Below, one piece after another: positions 6,290 through 38,825 of a stretch of DNA of 64,000 bases (its first letter is position 1; each line of letters opens with the position of its first letter). A program made the position numbers and the translations under genes. The stretch is from assembly GCA_944389075.1 (NCBI GenBank), contig CALXLA010000051.1, forward strand, positions 1-64,000, in the 5' to 3' direction. The stretch is from an uncultured Spirochaetaceae bacterium (lineage in GTDB: Bacteria > Spirochaetota > Spirochaetia > Sphaerochaetales > Sphaerochaetaceae). The notes under the pieces were generated by a model. That model saw only the letters and a program-made list of their open reading frames with translations, did not search any database and had not been told where the DNA came from.

Positions 6290-7210
6290 ATGCTGAGGAT
6301 AACAGTCGGAAAAAGTGATGAGGATTATTCATCTGTACAGGAAGCATTGAATGCAGTTCCCTATGATGTCCCTGCGGAGATCGTGATTTCCGAGGGAATC
6401 TATAAGGAGAAGATCTTCTCCGATAAGGAGTCCATTTCGCTTGTGGGAAAAGGAAATGTACTCATCACGAATGATGATGCCGGGTATGAGATTCTCGACA
6501 GGGGAATCAAGCGCGGGACATTCCGCTCTTATACCGCATTCTTCTCAGGAGGAAGTGTCCGCCTTTCAGGACTCACTATCCAGAACAGCTCAGGGGAAGG
6601 AAGCCTTGTGGGGCAGGGAATCGCGCTATATCTTGATGCAGGTGAGTCTTTTGTCGATAACTGTACGCTTCTTGGCCATCAGGATACATTGTTTATCGCA
6701 CCGCTTCCTGATGAGGAAAGGGAAAAGAACGGCTTCTATGGCCCTAGATATCTTCTTCCGCGGATCAGGAGACGCGCTGTATTCAATCATTGCAGTATTG
6801 AAGGCACTGTTGATTTCATCTTCGGTTCCGGAGATACGCTTTTCGAGGATTGCGACATCATAAGCAGAGGCCCGGGGTATGTCACAGCTCCATCAGGAAA
6901 GAAAGACTGGATTGGCTTTGTATTCCATAACTGCCGGTTCTCATCTTCTCTGGATATCCAGGAATGCGTCTATCTGATGAGGCCATGGAGGAAGGCGGGG
7001 AAGGCACTTTTCTCTTCATGCACCTTCGGCCATCACATCGCACCTGAGGGGCTTATCGCATGGCCGGGACACGATGATGAGATAGGGCACTGTACATTCC
7101 TTGTATCAGACTGCATATTCGAAGGCAGGAATGCTATAGATTCCTCTCATCTCGTATCAGAAGAACAGACCCGGATGATAATCGCATCCTTTGGCCTGTC
7201 TGCTGAATAA
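6290..7210 (+). CDS. pectinesterase (pectin methylesterase, CE8), cytoplasmic
   Basis: 306 residues forming a CE8 right-handed beta-helix. Visible family motifs in order are GQG (oxyanion Gln), GHQDTLF (catalytic Asp in the QD pair), GTVDFIFG (nucleophile Asp) and RPW (substrate-binding Arg). The enzyme removes methyl esters from galacturonate residues of pectin. There is no signal peptide, unlike secreted plant-pathogen enzymes, so it should act on imported oligogalacturonides inside the cell. The start at 6290 is chosen because the protein then begins with the family-like LRITVGKSDEDYSSVQEAL sequence, and because promoter-like boxes cover the upstream ATGs. It is the first gene of the pectin locus. 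Confidence 0.88.
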   Translation: MLRITVGKSDEDYSSVQEALNAVPYDVPAEIVISEGIYKEKIFSDKESISLVGKGNVLITNDDAGYEILDRGIKRGTFRSYTAFFSGGSVRLSGLTIQNSSGEGSLVGQGIALYLDAGESFVDNCTLLGHQDTLFIAPLPDEEREKNGFYGPRYLLPRIRRRAVFNHCSIEGTVDFIFGSGDTLFEDCDIISRGPGYVTAPSGKKDWIGFVFHNCRFSSSLDIQECVYLMRPWRKAGKALFSSCTFGHHIAPEGLIAWPGHDDEIGHCTFLVSDCIFEGRNAIDSSHLVSEEQTRMIIASFGLSAE

Positions 7211-7246
7211 TGCAAAAAGTCACCATAAAAGGTCAGCTCTGCGGAT

Positions 7247-8125
7247 TTAGTATTTTTCTAGAGTCACCGTTGTGTTCTGAACTGTCTTGGGATTGAGATT
7301 CTCTAGAAGCCAGGGCACATCGATTTCCCTTCTGTGAAGCTCTTCTGCGAAGGCTTTCCATCTGAAGCAGCCTGTAAGGGCAGGAATGTTGCCGACTTTC
7401 GTGCCATCCTCATTCAGATAGTAGTCCTTGCAGTGAATAGCTGCCAGGCGGTCGCCTATGATGTCCAGGATGGAGCGTACCCAGCTTCCTTCTGCCTCTT
7501 CCGAAGGCACCTTGAGCGGTACGCCGTCATATTCTGGTATTCCTGTCCAGGGGATGAGATTCACAGGATCGAATATGACTTTGAGATGATCGGACCTGAA
7601 TTCGTCCAGTATCGAGCTGAGGCGTTCAGGGCTTGAGATTGTATGGACGCGCGAAACAGCTTCGATTGCGACATATGAGCCATAGCTCTCTGCAGCATCG
7701 ACAATCTGCGAAAGCCCGTCTCTGAATATCTCGAGATTCTTCCGGTCTGATGTATCGAGGCTGAAGCCTCCTTTAGGATTCGCGTTGCCTGTCTCCGTGC
7801 CGACATAAGGACATCCGAATGCCTTGGCAAGGGAGAGGGACTTCCTGAAGCGGGCTATCTCACGACTGCGCTTCTCTTCATCCGGTTCGATGAAGTTGAT
7901 GTAGCAGCCTATGATGGCTATCGATACACCATGCTCCTTAAGCGTGGATGAAAGCGATGAGATGTATTCCTCATCCCATTCCTGCCAGGGGCGTGCCGAG
8001 GGGATGACTTTATTGAGCGCAAGCTGGATAAAAGATTCCTTTCTGATTTTCTCTACTGTCTGGCCAAGCTCGGCAGCAGAGTTGAATGAGCCTAGATCAT
8101 GGGCTCTGAAACCGATTCTGAGCAT
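7247..8125 (-). CDS. sugar phosphate isomerase/epimerase (xylose isomerase-like TIM barrel)
   Basis: 292 residues. The sequence fits the AP-endonuclease-2/xylose-isomerase-like TIM barrel, with metal-binding type segments IEAVSR, FDPVNL, and IHCKDYY in the expected order. Such enzymes interconvert keto-sugars, tagaturonate-like acids or inosose. Its place between the pectinesterase and polygalacturonase genes suggests a step in uronate or rhamnose metabolism, but the substrate is inferred only from context. Frames extend upstream to 8251, but similarity starts at MLRIGFRAH (8125), and a TACCAT -10 box ends 6 nt before that ATG. Confidence 0.75.
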   Translation of the reverse strand: MLRIGFRAHDLGSFNSAAELGQTVEKIRKESFIQLALNKVIPSARPWQEWDEEYISSLSSTLKEHGVSIAIIGCYINFIEPDEEKRSREIARFRKSLSLAKAFGCPYVGTETGNANPKGGFSLDTSDRKNLEIFRDGLSQIVDAAESYGSYVAIEAVSRVHTISSPERLSSILDEFRSDHLKVIFDPVNLIPWTGIPEYDGVPLKVPSEEAEGSWVRSILDIIGDRLAAIHCKDYYLNEDGTKVGNIPALTGCFRWKAFAEELHRREIDVPWLLENLNPKTVQNTTVTLEKY

Positions 8126-8137
8126 GTGCTTATGGTA
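8126..8137 (-). promoter_or_regulatory. -10 box abutting the TIM-barrel gene (leaderless type)
   Basis: On the minus strand TACCAT (8137-8132) is followed by 6 nt and ATG 8125. It lies in the intergenic space shared with the divergent GH28 gene, which uses a ribosome site instead. The -35 is not convincing. Confidence 0.45.
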
Positions 8138-8167
8138 CACTCGGAATTGAATAAAAGGAAGGCTGAG

Positions 8168-9508
8168 ATGTTTGACGCTGCAGGTTACGGAATCAGGGCT
8201 GATGGCCGCGATATTGCTGCCGGGCTGATGAGGGCTGTTGAGGAAGGACATGAGATTGTTCTGGAAAAGGGAACATATCTCTCATCTCCGATAAAGATCG
8301 GATGCAGGGCTCATATAAGACTCGAAGAGGGTGCGGAGCTCAAGTTCATCCCTGACTTCACCCTCTATCCTCCTGTATTCACGAGATGGGAAGGAGTCAG
8401 ATGCTGGTGCATGCATCCATGCCTTTTCATAGAAAATGCCGAGGATGTGCTTATTGACGGAGATGGCACGATAGATGGCAGTGGTGAGGCATGGTGGGCA
8501 GAATGCTCAAAGAAGAGGGAGAAGGAAGGAGCTGTTCCTGAGACGGAGATCGAGAAGAAGTTCGCAGCTCTTAATCCTGACTATAAGTCACAGCCTGGAG
8601 GAGGCGGTGGCCGTGGCTTCCAGTTCCTGAGGCCGCCTCTTATTCAGATAAAGAACAGCAGGCGTGTTACGCTTTCAGGTATAACCGTGCAGAATTCGCC
8701 GTTCTGGACAATTCATCCACTGTATTCTGAGGATATCCTGATTGATTCAGTGAAAGTAATAAATCCATATGAAGCTCCTAATACGGATGGAATTGATGTA
8801 GAATCAAGCATGAATGTGACTGTGCGCAACAGCTTCGTATTCGTAGGCGATGATGGGATTGCTATCAAATCCGGCTCAGGAGAGGACGGGATTGCTGACA
8901 ACAAGCCTTGCCGCGATGTGCATATCATAGGGTGTACGGTCAAGTCAGCACATGGCGGTGCTGTCATCGGATCTGAGACTGCAGGCGAAATCAGCTCTAT
9001 ATCAGTTGAGGACTGTGTGTTCGATGGCACTGACAGGGGAATAAGAATCAAGAGCAGGAGAGGACGCGGTGGCTGTATCCATGGACTGAAGTTCCGGAAT
9101 ATCATAATGCGAGGCAATCTCTGTCCGCTTGTCATAAACATGTATTACAGATGTGGTGCGGATGATCCTGGCGCTTTCTCTCTGGATAAGCAGCCGGTGA
9201 CTGCATCGACGCCTGCAGTATTCGATGTCGATATCTCCCAGTGCCATGCGATTGATTCGCTTGCAAGTGCCGGGATGCTTGTGGGACTTCCCGAAGTTCC
9301 TGTGAAAGGACTTTCAGTCAGGGACTGCTCATTTGCCGTGAAGAAGGGTACGGAGACACCTGTTTCTGATTCAGATATGTACAGAGGACTTCCAGATCCT
9401 CCATCAAGAGGCCTCAGGATCAGAAATGCGGAGATCCATATGGAAAACGTCGAAGTCACGTGCGAAGGCGAGAGGATCATCAAAGAGGATAATGTGGCAA
9501 TCATATGA
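8168..9508 (+). CDS. polygalacturonase, glycoside hydrolase family 28
   Basis: 446 residues of right-handed beta-helix. The GH28 active-site motifs are all present: NTDG (about residue 199), GDDGIAIKSG (the catalytic Asp pair), HGGAVIGSE (the His loop) and RGIRIKSRRG (the R-I-K substrate site). It hydrolyses alpha-1,4-galacturonan, and the family branch with an N-terminal FDAAGYGIRADG-like segment is often exo-acting. No signal peptide is present, so it is expected in the cytoplasm on imported oligomers. The start at 8168 follows a GGAAGG site at 5-nt spacing. The stop overlaps the next ATG (ATGA), so GH28 and the esterase are translationally coupled. Confidence 0.92.
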   Translation: MFDAAGYGIRADGRDIAAGLMRAVEEGHEIVLEKGTYLSSPIKIGCRAHIRLEEGAELKFIPDFTLYPPVFTRWEGVRCWCMHPCLFIENAEDVLIDGDGTIDGSGEAWWAECSKKREKEGAVPETEIEKKFAALNPDYKSQPGGGGGRGFQFLRPPLIQIKNSRRVTLSGITVQNSPFWTIHPLYSEDILIDSVKVINPYEAPNTDGIDVESSMNVTVRNSFVFVGDDGIAIKSGSGEDGIADNKPCRDVHIIGCTVKSAHGGAVIGSETAGEISSISVEDCVFDGTDRGIRIKSRRGRGGCIHGLKFRNIIMRGNLCPLVINMYYRCGADDPGAFSLDKQPVTASTPAVFDVDISQCHAIDSLASAGMLVGLPEVPVKGLSVRDCSFAVKKGTETPVSDSDMYRGLPDPPSRGLRIRNAEIHMENVEVTCEGERIIKEDNVAII

Positions 9509-10161
9509 GAAAGCTGTTTCTGCTGGGAGATTCGACATGTGCCATAAAGGAAGAATCAAAGCGTCCTGAGACGGGCTGGGGCGAGATGTTCCAGCCATAT
9601 CTGGGGGAAGGATGGCTCGTTGAGAACAGAGCAGTAAATGGCATGTCCACACGTTCATGTATTGAGAAGGGTGTATTCTCAGCTGTCCTTGAAGAAGTTT
9701 CAGACGGAGATGCCGCGATAATCCAGTTCGGGCACAATGACCAGAAGGAAGATGAGCGCCATACAGATCCATGGTCAGGTTATCTGGTCAATCTTGTGTA
9801 TATGGTGGATAAGCTCAGGGATAATGGGGCCTCTGCCGTGATAGCTACATCGATTCCAAGGCGCAGATTCCTGTCAGGCATACTTCAGGATACTCATGGT
9901 GACTATATAGCGGCGGCCATTGCCGCAGCTCATCAGGCATCTGTGCCTTGCATCAATGTGACTCTGCCTGCGATGCTTGAGTACCAGAGGATCGGCGATG
10001 AAGGAACCAGGAGATTCCATATGAATTTCGCTCCAGGGCTCTATGCCAATTATCCTGATGGCGATGATGACGACACTCATCTCCGGCCTGAAGGCGCAGA
10101 GTTCTATGCTTCTCTGATTTACAAGCTTCTTTCAGTCTGTGATGTCTCATTTCTTAAATAG
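9505..10161 (+). CDS. SGNH hydrolase, rhamnogalacturonan acetylesterase-like (CE12)
   Basis: 218 residues. The CE12 signature blocks are GDST at residues 8-11 (nucleophile Ser), QFGHND (Gly/Asn oxyanion) and DDTHLRPEGA (Asp/His pair). CE12 enzymes remove acetyl groups from rhamnogalacturonan or galacturonate, clearing the chain for hydrolases. It has no signal peptide, matching its GH28 neighbour, with which it shares a 4-nt ATGA overlap. The operon therefore carries demethylation, deacetylation and depolymerisation side by side. Confidence 0.88.
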   Translation: MRKLFLLGDSTCAIKEESKRPETGWGEMFQPYLGEGWLVENRAVNGMSTRSCIEKGVFSAVLEEVSDGDAAIIQFGHNDQKEDERHTDPWSGYLVNLVYMVDKLRDNGASAVIATSIPRRRFLSGILQDTHGDYIAAAIAAAHQASVPCINVTLPAMLEYQRIGDEGTRRFHMNFAPGLYANYPDGDDDDTHLRPEGAEFYASLIYKLLSVCDVSFLK

Positions 10162-10181
10162 AGCACATTACCTTTTTCGTG

Positions 10182-10193
10182 TATAATCTGCCT
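10182..10193 (+). promoter_or_regulatory. perfect TATAAT abutting the AraC-type regulator start (leaderless type)
   Basis: TATAAT (10182-10187), then 6 nt, then ATG 10194. No ribosome site precedes this ATG. The 18-nt upstream region lacks a strong -35. Confidence 0.65.
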
Positions 10194-13100
10194 ATGGGCA
10201 GACGGAAGGGCTTCATACTTGCCGATATAAATCATGGCGCGGGAATCAGGATGTGGAAAGCTATGAACAAGGCTTTCTCCTCATCTTCTGATGATGCCCT
10301 GTTCGTGTTTCCCGGTGGTCGCATAGATTTCAAGAATGGCAATGAGTACCTGAGGAATGCAATATATGACCTCGCATCAGGGAATAATATCGATGATGTC
10401 ATAATCTGGGCTTCATCCCTTGCAGGAGCCGTGGGGAAGGATACAATCGCGGATTTCGTAAGGGAAAAAGCCTCCAGCATCCCTGTCGTGGCCATCGGCA
10501 TGAGAATCGATGGCATAGCTTCTGTCGATTTCGATGCCTATAGCGGAATGGCTTGCGAGATAAGCCATTTCATAAATGAGCATAAGCAGAGAAGGATAGC
10601 ATTTCTCCGAGGTCCTGCTACGCATGAAAGCGCCGAAGAACGATACAGGGCATATTGCGATGAGCTTGAGAAAGCCGGGATCCCATATGATGATGCGCTA
10701 GTCTCATCTCCTCATCCCTGGGCAGAAGGAGAGGCCTCGATAAAGGAACTTGTAGTGGAAAGGGGACTGATTCCCGGAAAAGACTTCACTGCGCTTGTTG
10801 CAGCCAGTGATCTCATTCTCCTTGGTGCCCAGGACTATCTTGTCTCTTCTGGAGTCCGCATCCCTGAGGATATCATCACAGGCAGTTTCAACGGCAATGA
10901 AGAGAATATCCTGATGAGCCCTGAGCCGACTACGGTACTGATGCCTATCGATGCACTTGCAAGAACTGCATACTCCCTTTCCGGGAAGGATCTGGATTCT
11001 TATATAAAGCTTCCCGCCGTTCTGGATGTGAAGGATTCCTGCGGCTGCAGTGGAAAGATAGTCAGCAAGGATGCATTCCTCTCATCACTTGACAGAAGGA
11101 TCGCAGATGATGGTCTGAGGGCTTTAACCCTTGAGATATTCGATGAGGCTGAAGCAGGTTTCCACGGGCTTCCAAGGATAATAGGGGAATTCATCGGAGC
11201 CGGCGGCGACAGCACGATTCTTTCGCAATATGCGTCATTCTTGGATGACAGAAGCATATTCTACGATGCGATTGTGAAGGCGGAGCGGAAATCCAATGCG
11301 ATAGAGAGGGTCCGGACACGGCAGTATGCACATATCCTTGATGAATTCAAGAACAGCCTTCTTGCCACGAGATCATTTCGTGACCTCTCTCCGATAATGG
11401 CCAGGATATTTCCTTCTTTGGGCATAAGAAGAGCGTTCCTTGTACTTTACCGTGATTTCTTCCAGTCGGAACTGAGGGCGGGCTTTTCTTCGGCGGGGCT
11501 GTTCTCTGATTCGGTATTCCCACGTTCGGGGCTTCTCCCGGAGGTTCTTTCCGGGGAAATCGAAAAAGGCATTTTCGTGGTTGAGCCACTGTACTATGAC
11601 AATCAGGAGCTTGGCTATCTGATTCTGGAGGCTGCAGAGGCCAATGTGACTCTCATCGAGGATATAAGAGCGGCTGTCTCTTCATCAGTCAGGAGCATGA
11701 TGCTCTTTGATGAGATAAGGGATGCGAAAGATGCGGCGGAGAAGGGTGAGCAGGCAGCTCTTGATTTCTATTCCAAGGTCTCCGATGGCATCAGACAGTC
11801 GCTTTCGGAAATCAGAAGGAAACTCCTTGATGACAGGGTTTCCCCGCAGTCCATCTCCGATACCATTGTCGGTGCTGAGAATCTTCTGGAATTGTCTCTT
11901 GCGGAATATGAGGATGTGGAATTCGAAAAGCGCTTCGTGAATGCATCCTCGATAGCTGATGATGCCCTTTCAGCGGGGATTTCCGCTGGTGATATACCGA
12001 AATCGCTTCCATCTGTGGAAGCTGATAGGAAGCTCCTCGGGAAAGCTTTCTCCGTTGTGTCTTATCTGATGGGTGGCAATGCAAGGCTTTCCGTATATCT
12101 GGCACCTTCCTCAATTTGCTTTATCATTGAAGGCCGCATTTCCATAACGGACAGAAATTCAGTCCTCCTCGTGGAGAAATATGCCATTATCCACTCAGGC
12201 TCCGCGGTTTTCGCGGATGATTCCGTGACGATAAAGCTTCCTTATCCGGCCTTTTCGGGGAACTCTGCGTCATCTGATGCAGGTGGCAGCATCATCTACA
12301 TCTCTTCAGGTGATTATGACGCTGTTCCTGATGCTCTTCTTCCTCTGTCGCCTCTGACCGTACCTGCTTCGAATCTCTCGGATCTCCTTTCGGTTTCCAG
12401 CCATCTTCAGGCTGTCTCGTGGACAAGCTCAGGAGAGAAGGAGACGAGTTTCATAGTCAATCTTCTCAGAAGTCATCGCAATACGAAGAACATACCATGC
12501 ATATGCTTTGGCTCCGATGCTGAAGCGATTTCATTCAGAAGCGCATTGGAAGGCAAGGAGCTTCCTGCATCTACTGCAATCCTCGCTCTTGGTAATGTGA
12601 ATGTTCCGCCGATCCTCGGTGAATATGGTATGATAACGCATGTCTCTTCTTTTGAAGAGGCTTCCGGGGCTGCAGGAGATGTCCGGATGATATTAATGGA
12701 AGGGCTTTCCTATGAGATGATCTCGAAATTCAGGAAAAACCATAGATTCGCTACAGTCCCGATAGTCTCCGTATGCGATTCCCTTGCGGACAGCGGTGCT
12801 GAGAATATGGAGGAGATCCCGAACCTGATCGTGGTCAACACCTCGATACTCGATGCATCAGGCTTCGTATCGCGCCTTATCGCGATAATGGCTGGCAGCA
12901 GCCTTCTTCCTCCGCTTACAGGCATCATCGTGAAAAGAGCTGTCGTCTATATGAACAGGTGGGCAAGAAGACCTATAACGCGATGGAAGATCGCGGATGC
13001 TGTGAACATAAGCGAGGATTATCTGACCAGGATCTTCCGCAAGGAGATAGGCATCTCTCCCTGGGATTATCTGAACAGATACAGGATACAGCTCGCATCA

Positions 13101-13235
13101 ACGCTCCTTACCGGGACCGGCATGTCCATGAGCGAGGTCGCGCATGAGACAGGCTTCCAGGACCAGGCCTATTTCTGCCGTGTTTTCAAGAAAATAAAGG
13201 GCATTTCTCCTCGTCAGCTCAGAAAACATGGCTGA
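10194..13235 (+). CDS. large multidomain regulator: binding-protein-like sensor, GAF-like, degenerate kinase/receiver-like region, AraC HTH
   Basis: 1013 residues and no membrane segment, so cytoplasmic. About residues 5-290 look like a LacI-type periplasmic-binding-protein fold (FILADINHG start, IPVVAIG, RRIAFLRGP, PEDIITGSFNG). About 360-520 looks GAF-like, followed by a helical stretch and a region that recalls a histidine kinase and receiver but shows no clear phospho-His or phospho-Asp. The last 105 residues are a classical AraC double helix-turn-helix (KIADAVNISEDYLTRIFRKE, then MSEVAHETGFQDQAYFCRVF). It sits between the pectin enzymes and the ABC importer and is the obvious controller of both, most likely responding to an imported uronide. 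Central domain assignments are tentative. Confidence 0.82.
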   Translation: MGRRKGFILADINHGAGIRMWKAMNKAFSSSSDDALFVFPGGRIDFKNGNEYLRNAIYDLASGNNIDDVIIWASSLAGAVGKDTIADFVREKASSIPVVAIGMRIDGIASVDFDAYSGMACEISHFINEHKQRRIAFLRGPATHESAEERYRAYCDELEKAGIPYDDALVSSPHPWAEGEASIKELVVERGLIPGKDFTALVAASDLILLGAQDYLVSSGVRIPEDIITGSFNGNEENILMSPEPTTVLMPIDALARTAYSLSGKDLDSYIKLPAVLDVKDSCGCSGKIVSKDAFLSSLDRRIADDGLRALTLEIFDEAEAGFHGLPRIIGEFIGAGGDSTILSQYASFLDDRSIFYDAIVKAERKSNAIERVRTRQYAHILDEFKNSLLATRSFRDLSPIMARIFPSLGIRRAFLVLYRDFFQSELRAGFSSAGLFSDSVFPRSGLLPEVLSGEIEKGIFVVEPLYYDNQELGYLILEAAEANVTLIEDIRAAVSSSVRSMMLFDEIRDAKDAAEKGEQAALDFYSKVSDGIRQSLSEIRRKLLDDRVSPQSISDTIVGAENLLELSLAEYEDVEFEKRFVNASSIADDALSAGISAGDIPKSLPSVEADRKLLGKAFSVVSYLMGGNARLSVYLAPSSICFIIEGRISITDRNSVLLVEKYAIIHSGSAVFADDSVTIKLPYPAFSGNSASSDAGGSIIYISSGDYDAVPDALLPLSPLTVPASNLSDLLSVSSHLQAVSWTSSGEKETSFIVNLLRSHRNTKNIPCICFGSDAEAISFRSALEGKELPASTAILALGNVNVPPILGEYGMITHVSSFEEASGAAGDVRMILMEGLSYEMISKFRKNHRFATVPIVSVCDSLADSGAENMEEIPNLIVVNTSILDASGFVSRLIAIMAGSSLLPPLTGIIVKRAVVYMNRWARRPITRWKIADAVNISEDYLTRIFRKEIGISPWDYLNRYRIQLASTLLTGTGMSMSEVAHETGFQDQAYFCRVFKKIKGISPRQLRKHG

Positions 13236-13244
13236 AACATTAAT

Positions 13245-13292
13245 ATATGAGATGTCTGAATTTTTCAATCATCGGTTTGGATTATCTCATAT
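13245..13292. repeat. 9-bp inverted repeat upstream of the importer operon
   Basis: ATATGAGAT (13245-13253) is matched by ATCTCATAT (13284-13292), arms separated by 30 nt. It lies between the regulator stop and the first permease gene, and could be an operator for the AraC-type regulator or a weak terminator. It is only 35 nt before the permease start. Confidence 0.4.
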
Positions 13293-13326
13293 TGCTGTCT
13301 TAACCTGAAAATAACGAGGTAGACTT

Positions 13327-14283
13327 ATGAAGACAAAAACACAGGGGAGTGCTGTTTCCATACCGAAGGAAATACAGCGGAGCAAGCTCAGGCGCGAGAT
13401 TGCAAGACATCGCTCTGTTTACCTGCTTGCGCTTGTACCTCTCATCTACTACATCATCTTCAAGTATGTTCCGATCTGGAACTCACAGATTGCATTCAAG
13501 GATTTCATGGCAATCGATGGCGTCCTTGGCTCTCCATGGATAGGGCTTGAGAATTTCAGGACGTTTATCAATTCATTTTATTTCTGGTCCCTGATCCGCA
13601 ATACAGTGATGTACTCAGTCGGAAAGCTTCTTATATCGCTTCCTCTCTCAATCATCCTCGCTATAGCGATATATGAATGCACCAGGCCGATTCTCAGGAA
13701 GGTCGTGCAGACACTCGCATATCTGCCGCACTTCCTCTCATGGGTCATCATGTATGGTATCCTTCTCGCTCTTCTCGCTCCTGGAGATGGCGTTTTCAAT
13801 GATGTGATTGAGCTTTTTGGCGGAAAGGCTGTTGATTTCCTTTCCAATACAAAGACATTCCCATGGGTAGTCCTCATCTCAGACGCATGGAAGGAGATGG
13901 GCTGGTCGGCAATCATCTTCATCGCGGCTCTGATGGGCATCGATGTATCGCTTTTCGAGGCTGCCATGGTGGAAGGCGCCAACAGCTGGCAGAGGGTGAG
14001 ATACATAACGCTCCCGGCAATCGCTCCTGTTATCGTGACTGTCCTCATACTCAAGCTCGGAACGATTCTCGATGCTGGCTTCAACCAGATATTCATGCTT
14101 TATTCACCGCAGGTATATGCCGTTGCAGATATCATTGACACATGGGTATACAGACAGGGCCTTCTTGAGTTCGAATTCGGTCTTGCTACGGCTGTAGGAC
14201 TCTTCAAAGGTGTATTCGGCATGATTCTCGTGCTTCTTGCGAACTGGCTTTCAAAGAAGCTTACGGACAGCTCATTGTTCTAG
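13327..14283 (+). CDS. ABC sugar transporter permease, LplB/YtcP partner type
   Basis: 318 residues with six membrane segments and the EAA loop (EAAMVEGANSWQRVRYITLPAI) that contacts the ATPase. The sequence pattern YVPIWNSQIAFKDF near the N-terminus is that of LplB-like permeases of CUT1 importers for complex oligosaccharides, including rhamnogalacturonan/oligogalacturonide systems such as YtcP-LplB-LipO. It is followed 10 nt later by the second permease. No ATPase gene is present here; CUT1 systems of this type often share a distant MsmX-like ATPase. Confidence 0.88.
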   Translation: MKTKTQGSAVSIPKEIQRSKLRREIARHRSVYLLALVPLIYYIIFKYVPIWNSQIAFKDFMAIDGVLGSPWIGLENFRTFINSFYFWSLIRNTVMYSVGKLLISLPLSIILAIAIYECTRPILRKVVQTLAYLPHFLSWVIMYGILLALLAPGDGVFNDVIELFGGKAVDFLSNTKTFPWVVLISDAWKEMGWSAIIFIAALMGIDVSLFEAAMVEGANSWQRVRYITLPAIAPVIVTVLILKLGTILDAGFNQIFMLYSPQVYAVADIIDTWVYRQGLLEFEFGLATAVGLFKGVFGMILVLLANWLSKKLTDSSLF

Positions 14284-14293
14284 GAGGCAGAAG

Positions 14294-15211
14294 ATGGCAG
14301 AAAACAAGCAGAAGCATCTGAAACCTCAGATGCAGAACAAGAAAGTAAAGCTGACAGCAGCGGACCATGTATTCAATGTCTGTGTGAATGTATTCATGGT
14401 CTTCATCCTGATTGCAATAATCATCCCGGTGTGGTCGACGGTGACACTCTCATTCAGACCAGCTGATTTCCTTGGTACGAACCTCGAGGGCATGTTCCTA
14501 CCGCCATGGGAATGGTCGACTGATGCATATTCGGCACTTCTTGGGAATGATGGATTCCTTGATGCATTCCTCAACAGCTTCAAGATCCTTGTCGGGGGTG
14601 TCGCCTGTGCCCTGATTCTTACAGTCCCCATGGCTTATGTGCTTTCCGTGCAATCGCTTCCAGGACGCAAGATAATCAACCTGATTGTCATCATCCCTTA
14701 TGTCTTCAATGTAGGCATGATCCCTGCATACCTTCTTGTGAAGGACATCGGACTGATAGGGCATCTTCCTGCCGTTTTCCTTCCGGGAGCCATATCGACA
14801 TACAACTGCATCATCATGAGGCAGTTCTTCGTCGGGATCCCGAATGAGCTGAAGGAATCCGCAAGGATTGATGGCTGTACAGAGCTTCAGGTCCTCTTCA
14901 GGATAATCCTGCCGCTCTCTAAAGCTATCGTTATGACAATCGGACTGTATTATGGCGTATCATTCTGGAATGACTTCTTCAATGCTATGCTTTATCTCAA
15001 TGACAACTATCCGCTGCCGATACTGCTGAGGAACATCCTTCTCGCATCAGGCATGAACGAATACGTCGAAGTCAGTGCTTTCGGCAACGCTCCTGTCAAT
15101 GCGATCAAGGCAGCATCCGTATTCATGAGCGCAATTCCAATGGTAATTGCATATCCATTCATCCAGAAGTACTTCACGAAGGGTACTCTGCTTGGATCGG
15201 TCAAAGGTTGA
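14294..15211 (+). CDS. ABC sugar transporter permease, YtcP-type
   Basis: 305 residues with about six membrane segments and an EAA loop of the type ELKESARIDGCTELQVLFRIILPLS. It ends with the GTLLGSVKG tail typical of YtcP-like permeases. The start at ATG 14294 follows TAGGAGGCAG, where the first permease stop is built into the site, so the two are cotranscribed. Longer frames from 14237 overlap the previous gene and have no ribosome site. It should pair with the preceding permease to import pectin-derived oligomers delivered by the next-encoded binding protein. Confidence 0.88.
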   Translation: MAENKQKHLKPQMQNKKVKLTAADHVFNVCVNVFMVFILIAIIIPVWSTVTLSFRPADFLGTNLEGMFLPPWEWSTDAYSALLGNDGFLDAFLNSFKILVGGVACALILTVPMAYVLSVQSLPGRKIINLIVIIPYVFNVGMIPAYLLVKDIGLIGHLPAVFLPGAISTYNCIIMRQFFVGIPNELKESARIDGCTELQVLFRIILPLSKAIVMTIGLYYGVSFWNDFFNAMLYLNDNYPLPILLRNILLASGMNEYVEVSAFGNAPVNAIKAASVFMSAIPMVIAYPFIQKYFTKGTLLGSVKG

Positions 15212-15231
15212 TAAACAAATAAGGAGGCAAA

Positions 15232-16806
15232 ATGAAAACTCTGAAGAAAATCACTATTGCACTGCTTGTGTTTGCTGCAGTGCTTCCCCTTGCTGCTGGA
15301 GGCAGCAAAGAGAGTGCGGCTTCTGTAGATGGTCCTGTCCAGATCGAACTCTGGTTCGGTGCCGCAATGACGGAAGCAGGTATGATTCCAGATGACTGGG
15401 TAGGCTATGACATCATCCGCGATAAGCTGAACATAGATCTCAAGCTCACGATGCTCCCATCCAATGAGAGCGATCAGGATGTTAAGATCCAGGCTGCAGG
15501 CGCAGGCAATGCGCTTCCTGATGTATTCATGGTCCGCCGTCCTGTTCTTGTCAATCTCGTAAAGCAGGGCCTTGTTGCTCCTGTCGATGACTGCTTTGAC
15601 AAGATGCCTAACCGCACCACCCTGATGTATGACAATGATGCGAAGGCACATGCGACAATCAATGGACACATTTATGGATTCCCATCACCTGGTATGATCA
15701 TCAAGAATGAGGGTCTTCTCATCAGGAAGGACTGGCTTGACAAGCTCGGTCTTGAGGTTCCTACGACAACAGAGGAATTCCTTGAAGTCGCAAGAGCTTT
15801 CACATTCAATGATCCAGATGGCAATGGCGTGAATGACACATATGGATATGGCGCATTCATCGAAGTCGATTCCAACCTCAAGGGCTATCCAGGCTCAAGG
15901 CTCTGGCCGATCATGGGAGCATTCGGTGTCGAGGGACTTTGGTCGATGAAGAACGGGGAAGAGGGGCTGAATATCTACAAGCCTGAGTTCTATGACTTCA
16001 TGGTCTTCCTCAAGGGAATGTGCGATGAGGGAATCATCGATCCTAACTGGCTTTCATACAAGAAGGATGACTTCAGGGCTGCATGGAAGCAGGGCAGATT
16101 CGGTATGATGTATGAGCAGAATGCCGCTTATGCCGCTACAAGCAACTATGCTCCATTTGATAAGAACTTCCCTGATGGCGAATGGATTGTCATCGATGCG
16201 ATCTCCGGTCCTGAGGGCAAGGCAGCAATCGGTGCCTATGATATGAACTACAGAATCTATGCTGTATCCCAGAAGGCTGCGCAGGCTGGAAAGCTTGACA
16301 AGATCTGCGAGCTTCTTGAATGGATGAGCTCTGATGAAGGCTATTACCTCCTTGGCTGGGGTACAGAGGGTGTCAACTATGTTCTCGATGAGAGTGGCAT
16401 TCCTGTAGCAGGGGATCTTGGCGATATGGCATTCACAGGATCTAAGGGACAGGTCTACACGCAGCTCAGGAACATCGTATTCTACAATGGCGATGTCGAG
16501 CTTGCTTCAAGGTATCCTACTTACATCACAGAGGTTTCCAAGAAGGAGATGTCAGCTCTCAAGACTCTGAGGGAGATGCAGGCAATGACATGGACGAACG
16601 CAATCGGTTCTGGCAATCTGCCTACACCTAACGCAGACGTCAAGAGGTTCTATGAGCAGACACTCGGCGAGTTCCTCACAGGTGCAAGGCCGCTCAATGA
16701 AGAGACATGGCAGGCATTCATCGATGGCTTCAACTCAATTGGAGGAAAGGCCTGGAATGATGATGGCGTGGCTTATATGAAGGAGAATGGTCTCCTGCAC
16801 GACTGA
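15232..16806 (+). CDS. ABC transporter extracellular solute-binding protein (oligosaccharide type)
   Basis: 524 residues, the large size of LipO-like binding proteins. A signal peptide of about 22 residues ends in LAAGGSKES; it lacks a lipobox Cys, so the protein may be periplasmic rather than a lipoprotein. The body includes KLNIDLKLTMLPSN and a DPDGNGVNDTYGYG loop (a Ca-binding-like Asp-rich loop common in this family). An AGGAGG site precedes the ATG. It is the third gene of the importer operon and is followed by a strong hairpin, which could keep its message more abundant than the downstream GH105. Confidence 0.88.
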   Translation: MKTLKKITIALLVFAAVLPLAAGGSKESAASVDGPVQIELWFGAAMTEAGMIPDDWVGYDIIRDKLNIDLKLTMLPSNESDQDVKIQAAGAGNALPDVFMVRRPVLVNLVKQGLVAPVDDCFDKMPNRTTLMYDNDAKAHATINGHIYGFPSPGMIIKNEGLLIRKDWLDKLGLEVPTTTEEFLEVARAFTFNDPDGNGVNDTYGYGAFIEVDSNLKGYPGSRLWPIMGAFGVEGLWSMKNGEEGLNIYKPEFYDFMVFLKGMCDEGIIDPNWLSYKKDDFRAAWKQGRFGMMYEQNAAYAATSNYAPFDKNFPDGEWIVIDAISGPEGKAAIGAYDMNYRIYAVSQKAAQAGKLDKICELLEWMSSDEGYYLLGWGTEGVNYVLDESGIPVAGDLGDMAFTGSKGQVYTQLRNIVFYNGDVELASRYPTYITEVSKKEMSALKTLREMQAMTWTNAIGSGNLPTPNADVKRFYEQTLGEFLTGARPLNEETWQAFIDGFNSIGGKAWNDDGVAYMKENGLLHD

Positions 16807-16813
16807 TTATCTG

Positions 16814-16846
16814 AGCCAGCCGCTTTCTGGTGGCTGGCTTGTTCTT
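16814..16846 (+). terminator. hairpin between binding protein and GH105 (attenuator)
   Basis: AGCCAGCC (16814-16821) and GGCTGGCT (16832-16839) form a perfect 8-bp stem followed by TGTTCTT. The GH105 ribosome site (AGGAGG) lies just after it, so it most likely gives partial termination or 3'-end protection. Confidence 0.7.
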
Positions 16847-16856
16847 AGGAGGATTT

Positions 16857-17933
16857 ATGTCAGTTCCTTTATCGCTTGCTCTTGCTCAGAGCGTAAGGAA
16901 GAGATACACGCCGGGAATGATGGTGTGGCATTATGAGCATGGCCATGTGCTTCTCGCATCGCTGATTGCAGCTGAGGAGCATGGTGATGAGACAATCTAT
17001 CCGTGGGTCTATTCGATGTATGACAGGCTTATCGGCAGCGATGGCACAATCGCCACATACAGACAGGGCGAGTACAATCTCGATATGATCAATGCCGGCA
17101 GAGCTCTTTTCACCCTTGCCAGAGTCAGCGGGGAAGAGAGGTTCTCAAAAGCTGCGGAAGCTCTTCACAGGCAACTTGAATCACAGCCGAGATGCAAGAA
17201 TGGCGTCTACTGGCATAAGGAAATCTATCCATGGCAGATCTGGCTTGATGGGCTCTATATGGAAGGTCCTTTCAAGGCTGAGTATGCATCTGTCAATGGA
17301 TGCGCTGCTGACTTTGAGGATATCGTAAACCAGATCATCATCGTCAATGATGTGATGAGAGATCCGAAGACAGGACTTCTTTATCATTGCTTTGATGAAT
17401 CGCGCGGAATGAAGTGGTCTGATGACATCACAGGGCTTTCGCCGCACTTCTGGTCAAGATCAATCGGTTGGTACATGATGGCAATCATCGATGTACTTGA
17501 TTTCCTGCCTCAGTCACAGCCTGGCCGCGATAAGCTTCTCTCGATACTCAGGAACCTTGTCGATTCTGTGCTTAAGTTCCAGAGCGAGGGAATGTGGTAT
17601 CAGGTGACGGATCAGGGTGGCAGGGAAGGAAACTATCTTGAGACATCGGCATCCAGCATGTTCGCTTACTCTATCCTCAAAGGCGTCAGGCTTGGCTATC
17701 TCGATCCTCAGCTGAAGGAGAGAGGCCTCGAGGCTGTCAAGGCAATCAGGGAAAGATACCTTACAGAAAGGGATGGTGAGCTCCATCTCGGAGGAATCTG
17801 CTCTGTTGCAGGTCTTGGCGGCAATCCTTACAGGGACGGCACTTACCGCTACTACATAAGCGAGAAGGTTGTTGAAGATGACTTCAAGGGTGTCGGTTCC
17901 TATATTCTTGCTTGTACTGAGGAAGAGCGCTGA
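16857..17933 (+). CDS. unsaturated rhamnogalacturonyl hydrolase, GH105 (YteR/YesR-like)
   Basis: 358 residues forming an (alpha/alpha)6 barrel. Recognisable are WHYEHGHVL, the LDMINAGRALF segment carrying the proposed catalytic Asp, and WSRSIGWYMMAIIDVLDFLP, characteristic of GH105. These enzymes cut the delta-4,5-unsaturated uronic acid off the non-reducing end of oligomers left by pectate or rhamnogalacturonan lyases. The free unsaturated uronate is the substrate of KdgF, encoded nearby at 18620. No signal peptide. The start at ATG 16857 follows TTAGGAGG; the upstream GTG is inside the hairpin and is rejected. Confidence 0.92.
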   Translation: MSVPLSLALAQSVRKRYTPGMMVWHYEHGHVLLASLIAAEEHGDETIYPWVYSMYDRLIGSDGTIATYRQGEYNLDMINAGRALFTLARVSGEERFSKAAEALHRQLESQPRCKNGVYWHKEIYPWQIWLDGLYMEGPFKAEYASVNGCAADFEDIVNQIIIVNDVMRDPKTGLLYHCFDESRGMKWSDDITGLSPHFWSRSIGWYMMAIIDVLDFLPQSQPGRDKLLSILRNLVDSVLKFQSEGMWYQVTDQGGREGNYLETSASSMFAYSILKGVRLGYLDPQLKERGLEAVKAIRERYLTERDGELHLGGICSVAGLGGNPYRDGTYRYYISEKVVEDDFKGVGSYILACTEEER

Positions 17934-17971
17934 GCCCTTCCTCATGAAAGTCTATCTCGTGCCATTGGCAC

Positions 17972-18000
17972 ACGGGTCCGAAAGGGCCCGTTTCTCTTAT
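17972..18000. terminator. bidirectional hairpin terminator between convergent genes
   Basis: ACGGGTCC (17972-17979), GAAA tetraloop, GGGCCCGT (17984-17991), then TTCTCTTAT. It ends the GH105 operon and probably also the minus-strand SGNH gene. Confidence 0.75.
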
Positions 18001-18623
18001 ATTATGCTGCGTATTTCCTTTGCAAGCGCTTCTGCGAGTGCCTTATGTGAATCTGCATCCATATGGAGTAAATCAGGGCCGGGGGAGGCGACAGCTGCTG
18101 CATCGAAGAAGTGCACGCCTTTGAGTTTCGCTATAGTTCTGTATTCTTCTGCAAATGCCTCAGACCTCGCGACGGATGTTTCATCATATGTCCCGAAAGC
18201 TGAATTCTCGGCACCTTTTCCGATCCTTATCGGTGATATGAGAAGGATTTCAGGCGAATTCCCGCTCCACATAGACCATCTCTGTATTGTCTCTATGATC
18301 TTCAGACAGCCCCATGCGATAGTTCTTGCACTTCCCGCGAAGCATGCCTTCGCATCGTTTGTCCCCAGCATTATAGTGATGAGATCAAGCGGCTTATGCG
18401 TCTCAAGAAGCATCTCGATGACATCAAGGCCTCTTCTGTATGGGACATGAGGATCAGCAGCAGCTGCTGTACGTCCTCCGAGTCCCTCCTCGATTACCCT
18501 GTACTCATGGCCGAGGAGCATCTGGAGCCTTCCTGTCCACCTTATGTCATATGGCCATCTTGTCCCATCATGTGGATTGGAACCGAATGTATTCGAGTCC
18601 CCGAAGCAGAGGATGTTCTTCAT
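17997..18623 (-). CDS. SGNH/GDSL-family esterase
   Basis: 208 residues. Block I is FGDSNTFG near the start (nucleophile Ser10), block III is MLGTND (oxyanion Asn) and block V is LLHMDADSH (Asp/His). The spacing fits arylesterase/acetylesterase-like SGNH hydrolases. It is encoded directly after KdgF with an ATGA overlap at 18620-18623, so translation is coupled. Together with the CE12-type enzyme it may deacetylate different positions of pectic sugars; the exact ester is unknown. No signal peptide. Confidence 0.82.
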   Translation of the reverse strand: MKNILCFGDSNTFGSNPHDGTRWPYDIRWTGRLQMLLGHEYRVIEEGLGGRTAAAADPHVPYRRGLDVIEMLLETHKPLDLITIMLGTNDAKACFAGSARTIAWGCLKIIETIQRWSMWSGNSPEILLISPIRIGKGAENSAFGTYDETSVARSEAFAEEYRTIAKLKGVHFFDAAAVASPGPDLLHMDADSHKALAEALAKEIRSII

Positions 18624-18946
18624 GAAAGGAAGTCCTTTCTCTCCGGTGTGAAGACATCAAGAAGCTCACCTTTCTCGATGCATTCAAGTCCATGTATCAC
18701 ATCAGAAGGGATATATACGCTGTCTCCTGCGGAAATCCTCTCGGTCTTTCCGTCAAGAGTGAAATCAAAGACACCTGAGAGTATATAGCAGATCTGCGTG
18801 TGGACGTGCTTGTGAGGTGTTCCGATACCGCCTTTTTCGAAGTAGAGATGACAGATCATCGCATCTTCATCGTGTGCGAGTACCTTTCTTGATGATTTCT
18901 CATCAAGGACCTTTGCCTTGATATCCTTGTCGTAAAAGAAGCTCAT
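18620..18946 (-). CDS. kdgF: KdgF-like cupin, unsaturated uronate linearisation
   Basis: 108 residues, a single cupin domain with HKHVHTQICY (metal-binding His pair and Gln) and VIHGLECIEKGELLDVFTPERKDFL, very like KdgF. KdgF converts 4,5-unsaturated uronates released by lyases or GH88/105 enzymes to the linear keto-deoxyuronate, feeding the KduI/KduD or KdgK/KdgA routes. The start at 18946 follows an AGGAGG site; the frame that extends to 18973 lacks one. It is sandwiched between the MtaD-like gene and the SGNH esterase, and its function fits the GH105 at 16857. Confidence 0.88.
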   Translation of the reverse strand: MSFFYDKDIKAKVLDEKSSRKVLAHDEDAMICHLYFEKGGIGTPHKHVHTQICYILSGVFDFTLDGKTERISAGDSVYIPSDVIHGLECIEKGELLDVFTPERKDFLS

Positions 18947-35234: not shown

Positions 35235-35270
35235 TTGACAGTGATGTCCTTCTGTTGTCTAATGTGCCTG
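35235..35270 (+). promoter_or_regulatory. leaderless-type promoter of the LacI regulator
   Basis: TTGACA (35235-35240, consensus), 17-bp spacer, TCTAAT (35258-35263), 7 nt, ATG 35271. This is the clearest of the series. Confidence 0.7.
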
Positions 35271-36173
35271 ATGGCAGGTATAAGGGACATTGCTGAGAAG
35301 TGTGGCGTATCAGCTGGTGCCGTTTCACGGATACTGAATGGCGACCCATCTTTTTCCGTCACGCAACAGGTCCGTGAAGCTGTTGAGAAGGAAGCCGAAC
35401 GTCTTGGATATAAGACACCGAGACAGCGAAGAAATGATAATCCGCATATAATCCTCATGCTCGCTCCAATTGACAAGCCTGGGTTTGAGTCAGAGCTTTT
35501 CTCGATGCTGCAGCCGATGGCAAGACAGGCAGGCTTCGAATTGTCGCTGGCTGATTGTCATGGCAGAGCTGACGGACTTATCGCACTGGGGGAGTTCACG
35601 CCGGAGGAGATCGGGTGTTTCCAGAGCATGGCGGAACATCTGCTTTTCATAAATAACCTTGGTTTTGATTTCTCTTATGATTCAATAAAAGTCGATTACC
35701 GCTATGCAGAGGAACAGGTGATTGATTTCTTCCTTTCAAAAGGAATAAGACGCATCGGCTATGCTGGAGGGACTTTCCGCAGGAGCGGAGTCACGATAGG
35801 CAGGAGACGCTTTGAGGCATTTACGTCCATGCTTTCGGAGAAAGGACTTCTCAATGAGGACTGGGTGTTCTCCGGCAATATGGATGCCTCATCAGGCTAT
35901 GATGGGATAATGGCGATGACGGAAGTCCCCGATGGCATTCTTATTTCAGATCCTGAGACTGCGGAAGGTGTACACAGGGCGCTCCGGGAAAGAAAATCGG
36001 ATGCTATTGCCATCACATACAACAATTTCTTTCCGGTAAGCGGAACAGAACTGAGGATCTTTACGCCTGATGTCTGGCATACGGCTTTCAGGCTGATATC
36101 TGAAAAGATAAAAGGCGAGAGGGAGCAGAATCAATGCGTATTCTGTCCAGCACGTCTTTTGGAAAATACTTGA
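35271..36173 (+). CDS. LacI-family transcriptional regulator
   Basis: 300 residues. The N-terminal helix-turn-helix reads GIRDIAEKCGVSAGAVSRILNG with the hinge residues following, then a periplasmic-binding-like sensor domain. The sensor is shorter than the usual 330-340-residue form. Because it precedes the PhnD/PhnC/PhnE/PhnE/phosphatase genes by only 16 nt, it is probably cotranscribed with them and controls them together with its own promoter. The inducer may be the transported phosphate compound or its product. An alternative start at 35235 is the -35 box. Confidence 0.88.
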   Translation: MAGIRDIAEKCGVSAGAVSRILNGDPSFSVTQQVREAVEKEAERLGYKTPRQRRNDNPHIILMLAPIDKPGFESELFSMLQPMARQAGFELSLADCHGRADGLIALGEFTPEEIGCFQSMAEHLLFINNLGFDFSYDSIKVDYRYAEEQVIDFFLSKGIRRIGYAGGTFRRSGVTIGRRRFEAFTSMLSEKGLLNEDWVFSGNMDASSGYDGIMAMTEVPDGILISDPETAEGVHRALRERKSDAIAITYNNFFPVSGTELRIFTPDVWHTAFRLISEKIKGEREQNQCVFCPARLLENT

Positions 36174-36189
36174 GAAGGAGAACGAAGTT

Positions 36190-37230
36190 ATGAAAAAGGC
36201 TTTGCTTGTACTTGCTGTAGCGCTCATTTCGCTCAGCTTGTTCGCACAAGGGGGACAGGAATCCGCTTCCCAGAATGGGAATACTGTAATCCGCAATCTG
36301 AACATCATGTATGTGCCTTCGCGCGAACCAAGTGAGATCATCATGGTGACAGAGCCTCTGAAGGACATACTGACACAGGAACTTGCGACTCTTGGCTACG
36401 ATGTCCAGAATGTCAATATCTCTGTTGGCACGAACTATGAGGCTGTCGGTATCGCTCTCTCTGCAGGTACTGCTGATATCGCAGTGGGAATGCCAGCGAA
36501 TACATACATCCTTTATGAAGATGGCTGTGACGTCATACTTACTGCAACGCGCGATGGTCTTACTGTCGATAGCGATGATCCACGCGACTGGAACAGCAAT
36601 GAGCCTATCGGAGCAAGCACGGAACAGGCTGTGGGATACAGGGCCCTCATAATCGCAGGTCCATCGGCAAAGGGGCAGGAGCTTGCGGCAAAGGTCAATA
36701 ACGGCGAGGCCCTGACATGGGAAGACCTTGATTCGGCAAACTGGGCTGTCATGAGCTCGACAAGCTCTGCAGGATATGTCTATCCGACAATCTGGCTCAT
36801 GAACAACTATGATGGCAGGACGATCGGAGATCTCCAGCATACTGTCCAGGTTGATTCCTATCCGTCCGCATTCGCGCGCCTTGCTTCTGGTCAGGTTGAT
36901 GTCCTTTGCACATTCGCGGATGCAAGAAGGGACTATGAGGAAGATTGGACAACCACATTCGGGCGTACTGAGGATATCTGGACAGAGACAGATCTCATTG
37001 GCGTTACTCCTATGATCTACAACGATACAGTCTGTGTGTCCAAGACAAGCAGGACAATCACGCCTGAATTCGTATCTGCGCTTCAGACAGCTTTCATGAA
37101 CCTGAACAAGACAGAGGAAGGCAGGAATATCATAGCGATCTACAGCCACACCGGATATCTCCCGGCAACATCTGCTGATTACGACAATGAGAGGGTTGCC
37201 CAGGAGATCATGAGGAACTCAGGAATCTGA
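36190..37230 (+). CDS. phnD: PhnD-type phosphate/phosphonate ABC binding protein
   Basis: 346 residues. A signal peptide ends in FAQGGQES (no lipobox Cys), then a PhnD-type two-lobe binding fold with an ALSAGTADIAVG stretch, TSSAGYVYPTIWLM, SGQVDVLCTF and SKTSRTITPEF. PhnD proteins bind phosphonates, phosphite or phosphate esters outside the membrane for the PhnC/PhnE importer. It lies 16 nt after LacI, with GAGAAGGAG before the ATG. A hairpin after the stop separates it from phnC. Confidence 0.87.
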   Translation: MKKALLVLAVALISLSLFAQGGQESASQNGNTVIRNLNIMYVPSREPSEIIMVTEPLKDILTQELATLGYDVQNVNISVGTNYEAVGIALSAGTADIAVGMPANTYILYEDGCDVILTATRDGLTVDSDDPRDWNSNEPIGASTEQAVGYRALIIAGPSAKGQELAAKVNNGEALTWEDLDSANWAVMSSTSSAGYVYPTIWLMNNYDGRTIGDLQHTVQVDSYPSAFARLASGQVDVLCTFADARRDYEEDWTTTFGRTEDIWTETDLIGVTPMIYNDTVCVSKTSRTITPEFVSALQTAFMNLNKTEEGRNIIAIYSHTGYLPATSADYDNERVAQEIMRNSGI

Positions 37231-37238
37231 TTATACCA

Positions 37239-37266
37239 GGAGAGGGGATTTCCCCTCTCCGCTTTT
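37239..37266 (+). terminator. hairpin between phnD and phnC (attenuator)
   Basis: GGAGAGGGG (37239-37247), ATTT loop, CCCCTCTCC (37252-37260), followed by GCTTTT. The stem is perfect. As PhnC begins only 7 nt later, partial termination or mRNA stabilisation is likely. Confidence 0.75.
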
Positions 37267-37272
37267 GCAGAG

Positions 37273-38025
37273 ATGATAATTTTCAAAGACGTTACAAAAA
37301 TATACCCGAATGGGACTGTTGGCCTTAAGAATGTCAATCTTGACATCAGGGATGGCGAAGCTGTCGCTGTCATTGGGCTTTCAGGAGCTGGTAAGTCGAC
37401 ACTGATCAGGGCCATAAACAAGATGCATCCTATTTCATCAGGGACAATCACTGTCGATGGCACTGATGTCAATTCGCTTTCAGGAAAGGATCTGAGGATG
37501 CTGAGGCGTCGGATCGGAATGATCTTCCAGTCCTTCAATCTTGTCACCCGCACAACTGTGATCCGCAATGTACTGACAGCATTTGTTCCGGACCTCCCTG
37601 TCTGGAGGCGTGTTCTTGGCGTATTTCCGAAAGAAGACAAGCTGAAGGCTCTTGAGGCGCTCGATAAGGTCGGCATCCTTGAGAAGGCCTATACCAGGGT
37701 TGATCAGCTTTCAGGCGGCCAGCAGCAGAGAGTCGCGCTTGCGCGCACACTTGCTCAGAATCCATCGATAATACTTGCTGATGAGCCTGTCGCCGCACTC
37801 GATCCGGTTACTGCCAAGGCTGTCATGGATGATTTCAGGAACATAAACAGGAACATGGGGATAACGGTAATCATCAACATACATCATGTTGAGCTCGCGC
37901 TTGAGTACTGCGACAGGGTAATAGGCGTGAGAGCCGGACAGGTAGTGTTCGATGGCCCGGCATCATCTGTCAATGCTGCTGTCCTTTCCTCCATCTATGG
38001 TGATGAAGCCAATGAAGCAGAATAG
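37273..38025 (+). CDS. phnC: PhnC-type ABC ATPase
   Basis: 250 residues. Walker A is GLSGAGKST (about residues 36-44), the signature LSGGQQQRVALARTL and Walker B ILADEPVAALDP follow, and the switch His is in NIHHVELA. PhnC couples ATP hydrolysis to phosphonate or phosphate-ester import. It overlaps the next permease by 14 nt. Confidence 0.92.
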   Translation: MIIFKDVTKIYPNGTVGLKNVNLDIRDGEAVAVIGLSGAGKSTLIRAINKMHPISSGTITVDGTDVNSLSGKDLRMLRRRIGMIFQSFNLVTRTTVIRNVLTAFVPDLPVWRRVLGVFPKEDKLKALEALDKVGILEKAYTRVDQLSGGQQQRVALARTLAQNPSIILADEPVAALDPVTAKAVMDDFRNINRNMGITVIINIHHVELALEYCDRVIGVRAGQVVFDGPASSVNAAVLSSIYGDEANEAE

Positions 38026-38818: not shown

Positions 38819-38825
38819 GGTGTTC

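Follow-up and report, generated by a model that had tools for sequence, protein, structure and literature searches.

A stretch of 64,000 nucleotides (G000:C51:1-64000, called the window in this text) from a metagenome-assembled genome (MAG; 2.23 Mb, 95% complete) of an uncultured Spirochaetaceae bacterium carries, at positions 6290-18946, a cluster of genes for pectin-acting enzymes together with an importer and a large regulator (Table 1). The cluster is probably a locus with which a gut or rumen spirochaete scavenges pectin oligomers, controlled by a regulator that has lost the residues for phosphotransfer. A cytoplasmic pectin-oligomer locus is ordinary in kind, having already been published for Paenibacillus and for a rumen Sphaerochaeta-like organism; the regulator is the new part, and it is the part of the locus most worth pursuing.

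Relatives of the same genus in which the regulator is matched are MAGs titled uncultured Spirochaetaceae or Spirochaetales and Candidatus Ornithospirochaeta. The genus-level comparisons below cover 48 genomes. The locus comparisons cover 32 loci, fetched from the 41 same-genus relatives with a regulator match (the remaining 9 were left out), and the alignment and conservation counts of the regulator family are based on 39 members.

Architecture and ancestry of the regulator

The sequence-only reading of this DNA had described a large AraC-type regulator. This is correct, and the protein is in addition built of several modules. In the window protein Pfam detects no more than a LacI-type domain and an AraC helix-turn-helix (HTH); across the 39 family members it detects the LacI-type domain in 39, the AraC HTH in 38 and a weak HisKA in 5 (best 1.4e-4). 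An AlphaFold2 (AF2) model of the regulator, built from the 39 sequences, has a mean predicted local distance difference test score (pLDDT) of 86 and a predicted TM-score (pTM) of 0.54. In Foldseek, residues 1-290 match LacI-family effector domains, and the central 424 residues, modelled on their own (pLDDT 84.5), match histidine kinases (E to 4e-7). VIA aligned this central part with EnvZ (4cti, root-mean-square deviation (rmsd) 6.1 over 177 residues) and with DivL (4q20, rmsd 2.8 over 174), and its C-terminal end with the receiver domain of RpaA (9dvt, Z 11.6, rmsd 2.8 over 111). ShkA (6qrj) was aligned over model residues 41-422, nearly the whole stretch, with a poor rmsd of 18 Å. The VIA match list was filled by kinases, and the absence of other folds from it carries no meaning. 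There is no membrane-spanning extracytoplasmic sensor: the first strand of the LacI-type domain lies at residue 4 and the sole hydrophobic 19-mer near residue 900. The regulator appears to be soluble, with a cytosolic LacI-type sensor to which, judging from the modelled fold, a ligand would bind.

Canonical histidine kinases and receivers are recognised by a phosphorylated His, an N-box Asn, a DxGxG motif and an Asp at the end of the third receiver strand. In the regulator family the place of the phospho-His is taken by E, D, S or G in all 39 members, and no His is found within four columns of it. DxGxG is absent from the catalytic and ATP-binding (CA) region of every member, no conserved N-box Asn is seen among them, and neither receiver-like domain has a conserved Asp at the end of its strand 3, as placed from the AF2 model. 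One possible alternative is that the regulator is nevertheless a working phosphorelay protein, using non-canonical residues or a separate kinase. The protein keeps both the kinase and the receiver folds, one Asp of the CA region (D611) is found in 39/39 members, and atypical kinases can use other residues, an example being DivL, titled a tyrosine kinase, which is among the structural matches; these points weigh against a loss of phosphotransfer. Set against them is the lack of phospho-His, DxGxG, conserved N-box Asn and receiver Asp across the family, and we regard a functioning phosphorelay as improbable.

Full-length matches to the regulator are limited to the present genus and a few Treponema/Spirochaetales contigs. 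Among partial matches elsewhere in the class, eight proteins from six genomes were fetched; seven were scanned with Pfam, the eighth (L152) being cut by a contig end. In these outgroup proteins the same sensor part is followed by a kinase that keeps both His and DxGxG (4 of the 7 scanned) or by the signalling domain of methyl-accepting chemotaxis proteins (MCP; 3 of the 7). Since the same sensor is joined to intact kinases or to MCP domains, it appears to be a module reused with different outputs; and since some of its partners are intact kinases, the regulator family is most likely descended from a hybrid kinase whose phosphate chemistry was lost. The protein resembles a hybrid two-component sensor that has become a one-component regulator. 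As a separate observation, three spirochaete proteins (L147, L150 and L151) combine a LacI-type sugar domain that lacks an export signal with an MCP signalling domain, and are possible cytosolic chemoreceptors for sugars.

The regulator also changes faster than its neighbours. In the 300 pairs formed by the window and 24 of the 32 fetched loci, its identity is below that of LplB, of YtcP and of the solute-binding protein in 300/300 pairs, and below that of GH105 in 299/300; median identity is 37% for the regulator, compared with 78% for LplB, 78% for YtcP, 71% for the solute-binding protein and 67% for GH105. Within the regulator identity is highest in the HTH (61%) and the sensor (47%), and is 20-35% over most of the part between them. 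Such low identity between sensor and HTH is in keeping with a dead scaffold under relaxed constraint, although its fold appears to be kept. A fuller proposal, for and against which we find the balance even, is that the regulator is the founding case of a family of hybrids without phosphorylation, whose cytosolic LacI-type sensor acts mechanically on the AraC output by way of a kinase-receiver scaffold that has been kept but is inactive; the protein would be maintained beside pectin importer permeases that change far more slowly. A literature search gave no description matching this architecture, which does not show that the architecture is unpublished.

Location of the enzymes and origin of the oligomers

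The genes listed in the sequence-only reading are confirmed by Pfam at their positions (Pectinesterase 3e-30, GH28 4e-38, GH88/105 7e-90, and so on), and their names are for the most part right. Its list lacked one gene inside the cluster, the AP_endonuc_2 TIM-barrel gene considered further below. The motifs that GH28 has in common with the Thermotoga enzyme are those of the active site. The end of GH28 and the start of the CE12-like open reading frame share 4 bp. The small cupin appears to align over its length with KdgF, with His residues shared in the printed alignment against the cupin 7zyb.

Table 1. Genes of the cluster and domains of its regulator (positions in the window)
Feature	Position	Strand	Evidence
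CE8 pectin methylesterase, cytoplasmic	6290..7210	+	Pfam PF01095 3.2e-30; best PDB sequence match 8tne (pectinesterase) 4.3e-69; no signal peptide by hydropathy
AP_endonuc_2 TIM-barrel isomerase/epimerase-like gene, between CE8 and GH28	7247..8125	-	Pfam 7.3e-30
GH28, exo-polygalacturonase-like, cytoplasmic	8168..9508	+	Pfam 3.8e-38; Thermotoga exo-polygalacturonase 3jur 3.8e-44, motifs common to both in the alignment
CE12-like (rhamnogalacturonan/pectin acetylesterase) SGNH esterase	9505..10161	+	Lipase_GDSL_2 8.6e-12; rhamnogalacturonan acetylesterase 1deo 6e-10
Regulator, 1013 aa	10194..13235	+	Pfam Peripla_BP_3 and HTH_18; AF2 pLDDT 86; Foldseek/VIA; conservation
Regulator domain 1: LacI/GalR-type sugar effector domain	10194..11063	+	Top 50 Foldseek rows all regulators of, or close to, the LacI family (E 2e-14 to 2e-11)
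Regulator domain 2: putative GAF-like alpha/beta domain	11376..11648	+	Predicted secondary structure; region aligns to outgroup sensor proteins
Regulator domain 3: DHp and CA histidine-kinase fold	11646..12263	+	VIA Z 13.8 EnvZ 4cti, 12.7 DivL 4q20
Regulator domains 4-5: two receiver-like domains (the first putative)	12288..12893	+	REC fold, model residues 313-424 (RpaA 9dvt Z 11.6)
Regulator domain 6: AraC-type HTH_18	12990..13226	+	3.5e-24
LplB-type importer permease	13327..14283	+	BPD_transp_1 1.5e-14
YtcP-type importer permease	14294..15211	+	BPD_transp_1 3e-08
Solute-binding protein, N-terminal signal	15232..16806	+	SBP_bac_8 6e-11; hydropathy; weak similarity to known oligosaccharide/alginate solute-binding proteins
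GH105, YteR-type unsaturated uronyl hydrolase, cytoplasmic	16857..17933	+	Glyco_hydro_88 7.1e-90; 4wu0 1.1e-99; YteR 1nc5 5.4e-70
SGNH/GDSL esterase, probable acetylesterase	17997..18623	-	Lipase_GDSL_2 2.7e-17
KdgF-like cupin	18620..18946	-	KdgF 5fq0 5.9e-19, 5fpx 5.5e-17; best match cupin 7zyb 3.3e-26

The N-termini of CE8, GH28, the CE12-like esterase, GH105, the SGNH esterase and KdgF all lack a signal-like stretch, as judged from hydropathy and not with a trained predictor; by the same measure the solute-binding protein alone among the cluster proteins has one. This agrees with the earlier claim that the enzymes have no signal peptide and the importer does, the signal being that of the solute-binding protein. 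An upstream GTG at 16830 offers an alternative GH105 start that would add a hydrophobic stretch; the ATG at 16857 is preferred, because it is preceded by AGGAGGA and agrees with the starts of the relatives. Two further GH28 genes lie outside the cluster in the same genome, making three, and both also start without an evident signal peptide (N-termini read by eye).

It had also been argued, from the lack of a lyase in the window, that one must be encoded elsewhere. This is not supported: a search of the organism's own genome with PL1, PL9, RGI_lyase and PL22 gave no match to any of them, PL2, PL3, PL4 and PL10 not being searched. Over the 48 genus genomes, RGI_lyase is matched in none, PL1 in one (G026, a borderline match, with a GH28 match in the same frame), PL22 below cut-off in two, and PL9 weakly in ten, five of them over cut-off. 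As no lyase was matched and the three GH28 enzymes look unexported, a cross-feeding scavenger of oligomers made by others is more likely than an organism that depolymerises pectin itself, and the missing-lyase inference should be turned round.

Some points weigh against this conclusion. The MAG is 95% complete and could lack a lyase gene; the search covered four lyase families, with PL2, PL3, PL4, PL10 and others outside it; and the unsaturated products on which GH105 and KdgF act require that some organism make a lyase. The spirochaete might therefore degrade pectin on its own, with a lyase or an exported polygalacturonase encoded in sequence that the MAG lacks, or with a lyase of another family, and the few PL1 and PL9 matches in the genus lend this some support. 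Own genome and nearly all of the genus are nonetheless without the lyase families searched, and none of the genome's GH28 enzymes has an evident export signal. We consider self-sufficient degradation unlikely.

Scavenging is the most economical reading, and a published rumen enrichment fits it. In that sheep rumen enrichment on pectin, the Sphaerochaeta-like Organism 2 is described with pectin methylesterase, pectate lyase/polygalacturonase and GH88 enzymes that lack signal peptides, and with many oligosaccharide importers; its companions are an organism with signal-peptide-containing GH28s and a methanogen using methanol (PMC7807696). Organism 2 resembles the present one in being a spirochaete whose pectin enzymes lack signal peptides; it has a larger genome (3.6 Mb), and the published section on it mentions neither a locus nor an importer assignment, a regulator or a uronate pathway (PMC7807696). 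Paenibacillus amylolyticus 27C64 is described as having its sole CE8, a GH28 and GH105 enzymes in the cytoplasm, and as importing methylated oligomers that are de-esterified there (PMC7267202). CE8, GH28 and GH105 of the present cluster likewise lack export signals, as far as hydropathy tells. Unlike this organism, in which the four tested lyase families have no match, P. amylolyticus 27C64 is described as secreting four pectate lyases and a pectin lyase (PMC7267202).

A different question is which oligomer is taken up. The main imported substrate could be the disaccharide of rhamnogalacturonan-I (RG-I) in place of homogalacturonan oligomers. The closest solved relatives of GH105 are CA_C0359 and YteR, and YteR of Bacillus subtilis is reported, in the part of the source cited, to be an unsaturated rhamnogalacturonyl hydrolase (PMC4528949); the cluster contains a CE12-like esterase, and the genome RhaA and RhaB. 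CE8 and an exo-polygalacturonase-like GH28, in contrast, act on homogalacturonan, the neighbours in relatives are uxaBAC, and YteR of P. amylolyticus acts on homogalacturonan oligomers according to the cited section (PMC7267202). RG-I as the main substrate is in our view rather unlikely.

Import, catabolism and conservation in the genus

The importer consists of the solute-binding protein and two permeases, with no dedicated ATPase in the operon. The sequence-only reading had stated that the window holds no ATPase and that one must lie elsewhere. The second half of this stands, as an orphan MsmX/UgpC-type ATPase was found on another contig (L070:10166-11257; UgpC subfamily above cut-off, MsmX 6yir 4.5e-126), with nothing resembling a permease or binding-protein partner among its immediate neighbours, of which the N-termini only were read. 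The first half does not: the window contains two ABC ATPases, PhnC (37273-38025) and an MglA/RbsA-like protein (60344-61831), each in its own transport operon. Positions 35235-39644 form a PhnC-type phosphonate transporter operon, with a LacI-family regulator ahead of it. The uptake of pectic oligomers by B. subtilis is described as proceeding via YtcQP-YteP, energised by MsmX (PMC5730181). In that system and the present one alike, a binding protein and two permeases come without a dedicated ATPase, and a shared MsmX-type ATPase is encoded elsewhere (PMC5730181); unlike there, we here infer the pairing, in which the orphan ATPase would energise the LplB/YtcP importer.

The galacturonate route is found on another contig, where UxaB and UxaC both score above cut-off and are accompanied by a KdgR-like IclR regulator, a sugar kinase resembling 2-keto-3-deoxygluconate (KDG) kinase, and the 2-keto-3-deoxy-6-phosphogluconate (KDPG) aldolase Eda. 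KduI is also present in the genome. Telling against the proposed reading, the UxaA candidate, a dehydratase-family protein, matches galactarate dehydratase only, and below cut-off; the best KduD candidate falls below the kduD cut-off and passes the gluconate 5-dehydrogenase model instead. Rhamnose from rhamnogalacturonan could also be usable, because RhaA (above cut-off) and RhaB-like genes are present within ~10 kb of the orphan UgpC/MsmX-type ATPase. A sodium symporter of the SBF/PanS type, which may carry a uronate or keto-acid, adjoins uxaB in the same genome (C48; L129:2240-3247) and in 9/32 related loci.

The regulator, close importer matches and GH105 occur together in 25 of the 32 same-genus loci, and their clustering exceeds chance. 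A close importer or GH105 match is missing in the other 7, which counts against the proposed reading; in at least one of these (L049) the contig ends beside the regulator. In 17/32 loci uxaB lies divergently beside the regulator, and 5 of the 17 are without a close importer match; this arrangement points to a uronate-derived inducer. The conserved core is the regulator, the importer and GH105, often divergent from uxaBAC. The earlier grouping of KdgF and the SGNH esterase with this system is true of the window cluster and overstated for the genus: they are found near the regulator in one of the 32 related loci, that of the closest relative, and are thereby ruled out as core parts. Over the 48 genomes, the regulator and GH28 are both present in 41 and both absent in 5, with each alone in 1 (Fisher test p 2e-5, relatedness uncorrected); the association with UxaC is weaker (40, 2, 3, 3; p 0.01).

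The TIM-barrel gene is divergent from GH28 in the window, the two starts being ~40 bp apart (8125-8168), and lies near GH28 in 9/32 fetched relatives. It is a candidate uronate epimerase or isomerase; attempts to assign its function gave no PDB sequence match at 1e-5, and ribulose-phosphate epimerase scores were below cut-off only. In several relatives, GH105 is followed by a Bmp/PnrA-type transporter operon with a binding protein, a double ATPase and permeases (L079:18046-22868, L087:5038-9774, L111:18615-22970). A plasmid origin of the cluster was also considered, and megablast against a plasmid collection gave no match, a result that says little.

Proposed route and related regulators

The earlier inference that pectic oligomers are imported and then de-esterified and hydrolysed in the cytoplasm is supported by the gene anatomy and by precedent. 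Oligogalacturonides, and possibly rhamnogalacturonan disaccharides too, would be released outside the cell by other microbes, captured by the solute-binding protein and taken up intact via the LplB/YtcP-type permeases, with energy from the shared MsmX-type ATPase. Inside the cell, CE8 and the esterases would strip methyl and acetyl groups, GH28 would take off saturated galacturonate ends and GH105 unsaturated ones. Galacturonate would then be converted to KDG through UxaC, UxaB and UxaA, and the unsaturated uronate would pass through KdgF and KduI towards KDG. The LacI-type domain of the regulator would sense a uronate or short oligomer in the cytosol, and the signal would reach the AraC domain through a kinase-receiver scaffold unable to transfer phosphate, making the protein a one-component switch with the locus as its putative regulon.

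XylR-type regulators have a LacI-like sensor fused directly to an AraC domain, in ~390 residues. The regulator described here likewise has an N-terminal LacI-type effector domain and a C-terminal AraC HTH, but differs in that its 1013 residues include a stretch of ~640 between the two, made up of GAF-like, kinase-like and receiver-like modules. The hybrid two-component systems (HTCS) of Bacteroides combine a kinase, a receiver and an AraC-type output in a single polypeptide and control polysaccharide genes; in the section cited they are membrane proteins and phosphorylate (PMC11253607). Our regulator shares with them the joining of a kinase core, REC and AraC output, the first two by fold only, and is unlike them in that it appears soluble, senses through a LacI-type domain and no longer has the residues for phosphotransfer (PMC11253607).

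If the scavenging reading is true, such spirochaetes feed on pectin fragments that others have cut and set methanol free inside the cell, which would bear on the supply of methanol to rumen methanogens. If the regulator is as proposed, it would be a natural case for studying how a signal travels through kinase and receiver folds that no longer transfer phosphate; outgroup proteins with the same sensor and an intact kinase are available for comparison.

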